A DNA stretch of 64,000 nt from Halovivax cerinus (GTDB lineage Archaea; Halobacteriota; Halobacteria; Halobacteriales; Natrialbaceae), in the NCBI RefSeq assembly GCF_024498195.1, contig NZ_CP101824.1, positions 3,038,001 to 3,102,000 on the forward strand, written 5' to 3'. The position numbers and the translations under genes are program-made. Of the stretch, positions 20-55,637 are shown piece by piece. The notes under the pieces were generated by a model. The model did no database searches. It was given only the letters and a program-made list of their open reading frames with translations, and was not told the DNA's origin. Within the stretch, counting starts at the first letter, position 1; the number at the start of each line of letters is the position of its first letter.

Positions 20-195
20 GGGGTCGTGGCCAAGCCAGGCATGGCGACTGACTCCAGAGGCACGCCCGCCCGGGACGACACTCCAGCTGATATACTGATC
101 GAGTGGCTGATCACCGCTCGTGTGATGACCCTCTGGAGTACCGAGGTGGGTCCGGAGATATCAGTCAATCGGGGGTTCAAATCCCTCCGACCCCA
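20..195 (+). tRNA. tRNA-Trp (CCA), intron-containing
   Basis: Exon 1 runs 20-57 and exon 2 runs 160-195. The acceptor stem is GGGGTCG (20-26) with CGACCCC (188-194) and discriminator A195. The D stem is GCC/GGC (29-31 with 43-45), the anticodon stem ACTGA (47-51) with TCAGT (161-165), and the anticodon CCA lies at 54-56. The T stem is GGGGG/CCCTC around TTCAAAT (176-182). A 102-base intron sits after position 37 of the tRNA, the usual site in haloarchaeal tRNA-Trp. CCA is not encoded. The exact splice points assume the standard bulge-helix-bulge. Confidence 0.95.
58..159 (+). ncRNA. tRNA-Trp intron, probable box C/D guide RNA
   Basis: Haloarchaeal tRNA-Trp introns are known to act as box C/D guides for 2'-O-methylation of the same pre-tRNA. 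Here GTGATGA at 122-128 fits box C, and CTGA occurs at 87-90, 95-98 and 107-110 as box D candidates. CTGGAGT at 133-139, just after box C, is the exact reverse complement of the anticodon-loop sequence ACTCCAG (51-57), so it can serve as guide and also as the pre-tRNA helix. Which CTGA copies are used is inferred. Confidence 0.75.
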
Positions 196-263
196 TGTGA
201 CATAAAAAGGAAGAGCGGCCAACACGGCCGTTTCCGACATTTTTCCGAAAGTAGTGTTTCGGG

Positions 264-533
264 GTGGCCTGCGTGAGCGCGGACCGTTCCGATATCGACC
301 CCGAGATTTTCCGAAAGCGGGTCTTCGTTGCACCCCCGCCGACCACGGATCGAGCGTTCCGGTGTGGTGAGTGTCGTGCGCGCTGCACACTCCTGCTCGA
401 CGGTCACTCGGAGGCCGGGCACCACTACTACTGCTCGCGACAGATGGAACGGACGGGATCGTATCGTCGGTCGCGACCGACGGGGGTGACCGACGGTGAC
501 GCTGACTCGGTTCGCGTACTGCGAGCGGTGTGA
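264..533 (+). CDS. small Cys/His-rich hypothetical protein
   Basis: This is an 89-residue frame starting at GTG 264 or GTG 273. Residues around 33-57 hold CGEC, a further Cys, paired His and a final Cys (HHYYC), which suggests a small zinc site. It overlaps the next small gene by 38 bases. It lies 70 bases after tRNA-Trp in a run of compact, overlapping genes typical of haloarchaeal accessory DNA. I do not recognise the family. Its last third is Arg-rich and may be non-homologous after decay. Confidence 0.45.
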   Translation: MACVSADRSDIDPEIFRKRVFVAPPPTTDRAFRCGECRARCTLLLDGHSEAGHHYYCSRQMERTGSYRRSRPTGVTDGDADSVRVLRAV

Positions 534-48036: not shown

Positions 48037-48111
48037 GCTCCGTTGGTGTAGTCCGGCCAATCATTTCGGCCTTTCGAGCCGATGACCTGGGTTCAAATCC
48101 CAGACGGAGCA
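48037..48111 (+). tRNA. tRNA-Glu (TTC)
   Basis: A full cloverleaf: acceptor GCTCCGT (48037-48043) with ACGGAGC (48104-48110) and A48111; anticodon stem TCGGC/GCCGA with loop CTTTCGA giving TTC; T arm TGGGTTCAAATCCCA. No intron and no encoded CCA. A TATA-like CTTTTTACTA lies about 40-47 bases upstream. The 3' end is followed by partial copies of itself. Confidence 0.97.
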
Positions 48112-48341
48112 TTTTGCTGCGAACGAACGAGAGCAGCAAATGCGACCCTGGATTTGAGCCCTGTCAGTCGCAGCGCGAACGAAGTGAGCGACCGTCTGGC
48201 TTCGGTTCAAATCCCAGACGGAGCACTACAGCGAACGAATTTTTGCGAGTGAGCGAAGCGCGCACAGATGGGATTTGAATTATACCGAGGTTCTGCGAGC
48301 GAAGCGAGCAGGTTCTCGGAGTTCACATCCCAGACGGAGCA
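48112..48341 (+). repeat. two palindromic units repeating the tRNA-Glu 3' end
   Basis: Direct copies of the tRNA 3' end (TTCAAATCCCAGACGGAGCA, 48206-48225, and TTCACATCCCAGACGGAGCA, 48322-48341) close two successive units of 114 and 116 bases. Each unit also contains an inverted T-arm copy (CTGGATTTGA near 48147; TGGGATTTGAA at 48269-48279) that pairs with the direct copy. Unit 2 nests CCGAG/CTCGG (48285-48289 with 48315-48319) and CTGC/GCAG within. Unit 1 begins with TTTGCTGC/GCAGCAAA. They look like tRNA-derived or integration-made palindromes. Confidence 0.85.
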
Positions 48342-48512
48342 TCCGGCGACGTATCCGGGAGTGAAATGAGCGAGCGCTCGTGAGAACAGTATTCTCACGG
48401 TGAACGAAGGTCCGGAGTGGCTTGTGCCCCTGGGGGATCATATCGCAGGTCTGCGAGCGGAGCGAGCAGTTTCTCGTGAGTAGTTCGACCCCCGGTCGAG
48501 AGACGGGTACCG
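48342..48512. repeat. further hairpins and a degenerate third palindromic unit
   Basis: GTGAGAA/TTCTCAC (48380-48386 with 48392-48398) forms a perfect hairpin next to the palindrome CGAGCGCTCG (48371-48380). At about 48437-48497 a segment resembles the core of the preceding units (CTGCGAGCGGAGCGAGCAG, then TTTCTCG and GTTCGACCCCC) without the tRNA-Glu end. No gene is present. Confidence 0.65.
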
Positions 48513-55177: not shown

Positions 55178-55295
55178 GTACGGACGGGCCATCGGAGTGC
55201 CGGGCTTCGTCGGTAGCGAGAGTGTCGAGGCGATCGCCACGCGCGGTACGGAACCGTAGCGTATTCAAACGACCCCCTCGAACGGGTGAACGCGT

Positions 55296-55378
55296 GCGAG
55301 GGTAGCCAAGCGGCCAACGGCGGCGGACTCAAGATCCGCTCGTGTAGACGTTCGTGGGTTCGATCCCCTCCCCTCGCA
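55296..55378 (+). tRNA. tRNA-Leu (CAA)
   Basis: Acceptor GCGAGGG with CCCTCGC and A55378; anticodon stem GCGGA/TCCGC around CTCAAGA (anticodon CAA); a long variable arm (TCGTGTAGACGTTCGT region); T arm GGGTTCGATCCCC. Length 83, as expected for a class II tRNA. No intron or encoded CCA. Partial copies of its 3' end follow. Confidence 0.96.
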
Positions 55379-55553
55379 TTGCAGTGAGGCGCACGACGCG
55401 CCGAACGAAAATGCACGGAGGGATCGAATGACGCCGAGATTCTGCGCGTTGCGCAGGTTCTCGGAGGTGGTTCGATCCCCTCCCCTCGCATCGCAAGCGC
55501 CGCACTGCCGCGGCGAGACGCGATGCGGAAGATCCGAGCGATCTTCCCTCGCA
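55379..55553 (+). repeat. palindromic unit repeating the tRNA-Leu 3' end
   Basis: A direct copy of the tRNA end (GGTTCGATCCCCTCCCCTCG, with CA, 55469-55490) pairs with an inverted T-arm copy (GGGATCGAA, 55420-55428). Inside are nested stems CCGAGA/TCTCGG (55434-55439 with 55459-55464) and CTGCGC/GCGCAG (55442-55447 with 55451-55456) around a GTT loop. A short further end (CCCTCGCA, about 55546-55553) follows. The inner CCGAG..TTCTGC and GCAGGTTCTCGG core is shared with the tRNA-Glu unit at 48285-48319. Confidence 0.85.
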
Positions 55554-55637
55554 ACATTTTACAGGGCTGGGTAGTTCGAGAGCCGTGGCATCACCTCGAT
55601 CACAGTGGCTTTGGCGCTTCGCTACGCCTGTACCGAT

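Follow-up and report, generated by a model that had tools for sequence, protein, structure and literature searches.

The nearest precedent for the arrays described here is provided by the 178-bp repeats of the Escherichia coli tyrT/tyrV locus (rttR RNA, tpr), which form a tandem array downstream of a tRNA gene, every repeat closing with the 3' end of that gene; when we checked this locus, it contained three 178-nt repeats that end in AATCCTTCCCCCACCA, the 3' end of tRNA-Tyr. To our knowledge, these repeats are limited to a single locus in one bacterial group, and neither an inverted T-loop copy nor a shared hairpin core has been described for them. They do not recur at many tRNA genes with arms changed to match, whereas the haloarchaeal units do, and no match between the units and the rtT RNA family of Rfam was detected at the gathering threshold or at E<=1. 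The REP/BIME hairpin repeats and the ends of IS200/IS605 elements are strand-specific, imperfect hairpins with conserved mismatches that spread as non-coding repeats, and they are neither anchored at tRNA genes nor accompanied by a 22-nt target copy. CRISPR-like or casposon-type integration by Cas1 would be expected to give target duplication and polarised addition beside a leader-like site; duplication and polarity are present in the units, but their inserted DNA also bears a target-matching arm.

Two further classes of archaeal elements are relevant for comparison. The palindrome-associated elements (PATEs) and small mobile repeats (SMRs) of Haloquadratum are likewise haloarchaeal, short, palindromic and transposase-free, and one of them, SMR-A (~110 bp), targets palindromes, its mode of mobilisation being unknown (PMC3119063). 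PATEs and SMRs produce no target duplication, and instead of tRNA genes they target mobile elements, among them IS605-type ends (PMC3119063), whereas the units duplicate a 22-nt tRNA tail, target tRNA genes and carry arms that match the target. Elements of the SSV, pNOB8 and SNJ2 types that integrate into tRNA genes also duplicate the tRNA 3' end that they target, regenerate an intact tRNA and can occur in tandem (PMC8371274), but they span kilobases and encode an integrase, in contrast to units of ~110 nt that contain no gene and include an inverted T-loop copy. The flanking direct repeats of the tRNA 3' end by which tyrosine-recombinase elements are recognized are present in the units, but an integrase gene or a full-length relative is not, the units being too short for a gene and the viral, plasmid and phage searches having returned no match. 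Our search of the open literature found no description of tRNA-tracking hairpin arrays, and their novelty should be regarded as unproven.

In the window, that is, the entire stretch of 64,000 nt of the Halovivax cerinus chromosome analysed here, a sequence-only reading had placed a palindromic unit immediately 3' of tRNA-Leu, at 55379-55553. The existence of the unit was borne out, and the phenomenon turned out to be far larger than that reading had noted; the unit proper comprises 112 nt (55379-55490), and the remainder, 55491-55553, is older post-tRNA sequence, which in sister species lies directly 3' of tRNA-Leu. Each unit runs from hairpin A through iT and hairpin B (core) to T', where iT is an inverted copy of the local T-loop and T' is a direct copy of the 3' end of the local tRNA (Table 1). 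The three nested perfect stems of 9, 6 and 6 pairs that had been described for the Leu unit are correct: the outer 9-bp stem is indeed formed by inverted and direct T-arm copies (iT and T'), and the inner ones are CCGAGA/TCTCGG and CTGCGC/GCGCAG. The iT pairs perfectly over 9 bp with 55471-55479 and also with 55359-55367, and T' is located 112 nt downstream of the original tail. Hairpin A is akin to the hairpin 3' of the tail copy in a sister species (G361).

Table 1. Positions of the tRNA-Leu(CAA) and tRNA-Glu(TTC) genes and their units in the window
Feature	Position	Strand	Basis
tRNA-Glu(TTC)	48037-48111	+	ARAGORN and Rfam
Glu unit 1 (114 nt): hairpin A, iT 48150-48160, B core CAGTCGCAG..CGTCTG, T' 48204-48225 (22/22)	48112-48225	+	
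Glu unit 2 (116 nt): iT 48269-48279, B core 48285-48319 (Leu-unit type), T' 48320-48341 (20/22)	48226-48341	+	
Degenerate third Glu unit: B-like hairpin ~48437-48476, 83% to Glu unit 2	48342-48500	+	
tRNA-Leu(CAA)	55295-55379	+	ARAGORN and Rfam
tRNA-Leu(CAA) 3' tail GGTTCGATCCCCTCCCCTCGCA	55357-55378	+	
Leu unit hairpin A, tRNA-proximal	55379-55419	+	folding and species comparison
Leu unit iT, inverted local T-loop copy GGGATCGAA	55420-55428	+	
Leu unit hairpin B core CCGAGATTCTGCGCGTTGCGCAGGTTCTCGG, CCGAG/TTCTG type	55434-55464	+	
Leu unit T', exact 22-nt direct copy of tRNA-Leu 3' end	55469-55490	+	
Older downstream hairpins and decayed tail remnant CTTCCCTCGCA (55543-55553)	55491-55553	+	sister-species comparison

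Hairpin B of the Leu unit is a nested hairpin that bears the words CCGAGATTCTGC and GCAGGTTCTCGG. The claim that its inner core is shared with a unit at tRNA-Glu, 7 kb away, holds as well: in the 64 kb, CCGAGNTTCTGC and GCAGGTTCTCGG are both limited to two sites, one in the Leu unit and one in the Glu unit, compared with 0.04 and 0.01 occurrences expected, respectively. The strand from 55380 to 55560 folds far more stably than shuffled versions (z = -7.2), and this fold, the counts of the core words and the foreign-tail controls given below rule out a chance palindrome. Cores of the same CCGAG/TTCTG type follow tRNA-Glu(TTC), tRNA-Val(TAC), tRNA-Ser(TGA) and tRNA-Met in the Halovivax cerinus chromosome and tRNA-Met and tRNA-Asp in genomes of another family. 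No Rfam family matches the units, with nothing credible at E<=1, and in the window the tRNAs alone match; a weak antisense match to mir-3200 was dismissed as chance. Elsewhere in the window (20-195), a tRNA-Trp with an intron of ~100 nt is present, with no hairpin unit after it; a near-identical sequence (GGGGTGGYCTGCGTGAGCGCGGACCGTTCCGATA...) was observed 3' of tRNA-Trp (window 241-360), tRNA-Ala(CGC) and tRNA-Pro(GGG) (L010 and L039), and these copies are probably a family of tRNA-integrated elements.

To survey the Halovivax cerinus chromosome, 41 tRNA genes with their flanks were each scanned for copies of their own tail; 24 of the 41 are followed by one to five tandem units, 44 units in total, each of about 100-180 nt. 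Across nine haloarchaeal genomes from several families, at least one unit was found at 110 of 244 tRNAs, for a total of 165 units with a median period of 126 nt; the resulting 45% is a value for this sample only because the tRNAs with the highest scores were taken as loci and the majority of the genomes were picked for having core matches. A genome that was picked for having no CAGTCGCAG-type match (G357) still has units at 11 of its 30 tRNAs. In the same nine genomes, tails of unrelated tRNAs matched in only 11 of 3,670 tests (0.3%). In non-haloarchaeal archaea of the phylum, a tail copy was found at one of 50 tRNAs, and that copy looks different: it is a perfect copy that includes the T-stem, 139 nt after tRNA-Ala(CGC) (L335, in G393), and looks like an attachment-site remnant of a kind other than the hairpin unit.

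T' extends from G53 to the discriminator base N73 (~21 letters) and is perfect over 22 nt in 91 of the 165 units. Its left boundary coincides with the T-loop-closing base G53, with mismatches in 34 of the 165 units at position 52, in 6 at position 53 and in none at position 54. The iT has at least 9 of 12 matches in 128 of the 165 units, compared with 5 of 165 shuffled units, and the partner of the local purine 57 is correct in 140 of 150 units; together with the rarity of foreign-tail matches, these counts agree with the earlier proposal that the arms match the neighbouring tRNA whereas the cores are shared. At non-consensus tail positions, the iT carried the local base in 36 cases and the consensus base in 38 when anchoring was biased against tracking, and in 45 and 27 cases, respectively, when anchored on the local tail; the tracking is imperfect because, where the local base departs from the consensus, between a third and a half of the arm positions still show the consensus base. 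Tracking of the local tRNA by the arms is thus strong but incomplete. The sequence just 5' of the iT is weakly complementary to the local acceptor end (3.38 vs 2.98 of 5, p = 5e-11), and at the iT ends G.T mismatches far outnumber A.C mismatches. The T-loop of tRNA-Lys(TTT) differs between two sister genomes (CAACT or CAAGT), and there the T-loop, T' and iT have changed together around a nearly unchanged B. A half-unit ground state (tRNA, A and iT) was considered and rejected as a general model because a clear iT was found at just 19 of 134 unit-less tRNAs and 5 of 110 array ends. As a separate observation, tail copies in L033, L152 and the Lys arrays of three genomes (G092, G346 and G100), that is, at different tRNAs and in distant genomes, show a recurrent extra C in the T-loop (TTCACAATC for TTCAAATC).

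The notion of a single fixed core did not survive the comparison: B comprises several families of linker and stem, which recur at different tRNAs and in different archaeal families, and variation extends to hairpin A and the linkers. An identical B is found at tRNA-Gly(GCC) and tRNA-Glu(TTC) of one genome and at tRNA-Glu(CTC) of another, and B cores can be 97% alike across families; by contrast, hairpin A is mostly tRNA-specific, is conserved at the given tRNA between species and is not shared in the way B is. In some orthologous units (for example, Asp unit 2 and Ser-TGA unit 1), A and the tail are kept and B is replaced. In the CAGTCG...CGTCTG family of B, a T.T mismatch is kept in 45 of 56 cases, so B is probably recognized by something, and the orientation is 45 to 0, with none inverted; active site-specific recombination between inverted T-loops, for which inverted B would be expected, was rejected. 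The loop motif GA-NN-GNA-NN-GA, in which N is free and the stems covary, has 125 sense and 5 antisense occurrences. DNA minihairpins in which a C-G pair closes a GNA loop are extraordinarily stable (PMC4686876), which suggests that folded single-stranded DNA matters here. Taken together, the sense bias, the GNA loops and the T.T mismatch suggest a cassette that works in the form of folded single-stranded DNA and that a protein may recognize.

The tRNA-specific B core is essentially confined to tRNAs. In Halovivax cerinus, 12 of the 15 matches to the core pattern belong to arrays that immediately follow a tRNA, and the remaining three have no hairpin interior; frequent occurrence of the core at non-tRNA sites, which would have spoken for an ordinary repeat, was thus not observed. 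A scan of ~85,000 species with a longer core yielded 11 places, all haloarchaeal, of which 10 are directly 3' of a tRNA whose tail is copied and the eleventh has an apparent tRNA-Thr tail, with no tRNA called in the stretch scanned. The core was not found in 2.9 million viral contigs (three patterns), and the queried units had no match in plasmid or phage records, so an element borne by a virus or plasmid was rejected. An ordinary dispersed repeat was rejected too, as no further sites of the tRNA-specific B core turned up; hairpins with GNA loops that are related to it are, however, present in other arrays. These are tandem arrays of GNA-loop hairpins without tRNA tails (L275, at G000:C1:1582000-1583500, L273, L266 and L279), with periods of 63-145 nt and up to five copies, located beside or within protein genes; they look like part of a wider hairpin family. 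The motif CGARCGNAGYGAG occurs 93 times in the genome compared with 16 in the control. Several paralogous coding regions (L267, L274, L281 and L282) contain a common hairpin block (GGGCGGCGCGAACGGAGTGAGGGCCGCC...), located shortly 3' of a stretch that reads HELAHV-like, a protease-type motif.

The arrays are polarized, with more decay distally than next to the tRNA: of 57 arrays with several units, 32 have a first copy superior to the last and 2 show the opposite (p = 2.6e-6). They also differ between relatives, unit numbers being different at most tRNAs among the Halovivax genomes. At tRNA-Leu(CAA), two sister species (G070 and G207) have no unit and a clean junction, the Halovivax cerinus site is filled by a unit with the 22-nt duplication, and G361 has at the same point a unit with different A and B; variation of units at the same tRNA, which the sequence-only reading had suggested checking between strains, is thus seen between species. 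At tRNA-Ala(CGC), two species are empty and three filled. The direction of these gains or losses is unpolarized because precise deletion between 22-nt repeats also yields empty sites, and precise presence or absence fits recombination between 22-nt direct repeats as well. At tRNA-Arg(TCT), the first displaced copy in Halovivax cerinus bears the tail allele of a sister species (G100) and is followed by the same hairpin A, as if a former 3' end had been pushed downstream. Near-identical tandem expansions are seen at tRNA-Gly(TCC) in G346, where the expansion is recent, and at tRNA-Arg(CCT) in Halovivax cerinus.

Overall, the arrays point to a process that adds DNA beside tRNA genes in register with each tRNA. 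We assign a probability of roughly 45% to the reading under which they are tRNA-anchored, non-coding hairpin arrays of Halobacteria, with strand-specific cassettes exchanged or inserted via the T-loop and the tRNA 3' end and with turnover beside the tRNA. B would be a strand-specific hairpin cassette that is gained or replaced through recombination or template switching, entering and leaving through the 11-nt T-loop homology common to nearly all tRNA genes; the process would then re-enter the local locus at the T-loop and copy the local tail, which would preserve the tRNA and give arms of local sequence in every case, and unequal recombination between tails would subsequently expand or delete units. 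Given the start of the copy at the T-loop, the exchange of B between loci with only T-loop and tail in common, the local arms and the proximal turnover, copying or recombination at the T-loop appears to be the best explanation. Points against this reading are that a T-loop of 11 nt offers little length for homologous recombination, that the arms track the tRNA imperfectly and that deletion between the 22-nt repeats would give empty sites too; the conserved T.T mismatch, in turn, speaks against the idea that the iT follows the local tRNA because the palindrome is often corrected. The earlier suggestion that the arms are copied from each target tRNA stands as a pattern, whereas its attribution to an integrase-mediated or tRNA-primed process found no support. 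It is conceivable, if doubtful, that an undescribed, dedicated haloarchaeal system reads tRNA 3' ends, writes hairpin cassettes and re-templates both arms for each tRNA, such that one family could colonise nearly any tRNA.

Rather unlikely, in our view, is the possibility that the units are miniature, non-autonomous integrative elements with an attachment site at the tRNA 3' end, mobilized in trans by a tyrosine recombinase or another enzyme, T' being the displaced site and accretion leaving the newest element beside the tRNA. Archaeal tRNA integrases prefer tRNA 3' ends, and the duplication from the T-loop to N73 resembles their att cores (PMC8371274); the clean filled and empty sites, the proximal polarity, the tRNA-Arg(TCT) allele in the first displaced copy ahead of the same hairpin A and the conserved, recognition site-like features of B are all in line with such elements. 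However, about 24 tRNAs would each need their own matching attachment site and iT, and no viral, plasmid or phage counterparts of the core or the queried units were found. An integrase acting in trans accounts for the duplication, the polarity and the displaced tail, but not for the concerted change of T-loop, T' and iT around a nearly constant B at tRNA-Lys(TTT) or for the lack of inverted B despite the inverted T-loop sites.

That the arrays are functional RNA, a transcribed tRNA 3' trailer whose hairpins act in processing, in termination or as a T-arm decoy, with selection keeping the iT complementary to the local T-arm, seems improbable. As RNA, the sense strand gives the better fold of the two strands in 119 of the 165 units (p = 1.6e-12), which leaves room for an RNA role, and the excess of G.T over A.C at the iT ends, the location of the units always downstream and in the tRNA sense, the conservation of the B sequence and its T.T mismatch across families and the higher frequency of T-runs after N73 in array tRNAs (34/110 vs 14/134) point the same way; but units are commonly absent, in sister species even from the very tRNA that carries them here, the number of units and the type of B vary freely, Rfam contains no matching family, and C-GNA-G loops typify DNA minihairpins of very high stability (PMC4686876). 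Tandem duplication and gene conversion, with no cassette mobility, of ancient arrays that each tRNA has inherited and that are for the most part in the course of loss would account for the near-identical expansions at tRNA-Gly(TCC) and tRNA-Arg(CCT) and for the locus-specific hairpin A common to species at the same tRNA, but is highly improbable given the identical B cores at unrelated tRNAs of one genome, the different B types in orthologous units and the frequent lack of units at orthologous tRNAs, even within the genus.

If the reading that we favour is correct, many tRNA genes of one archaeal class head evolving arrays that record past 3' ends, in effect CRISPR-style polarized arrays in which the repeat is the tRNA itself, and a target-templated process of insertion or exchange would be revealed. 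The 165 units examined here would then constitute a large comparative set for the study of single-strand hairpin recombination or of structured tRNA trailers, and the arrays would offer a route to studying why tRNA genes are integration hot spots.
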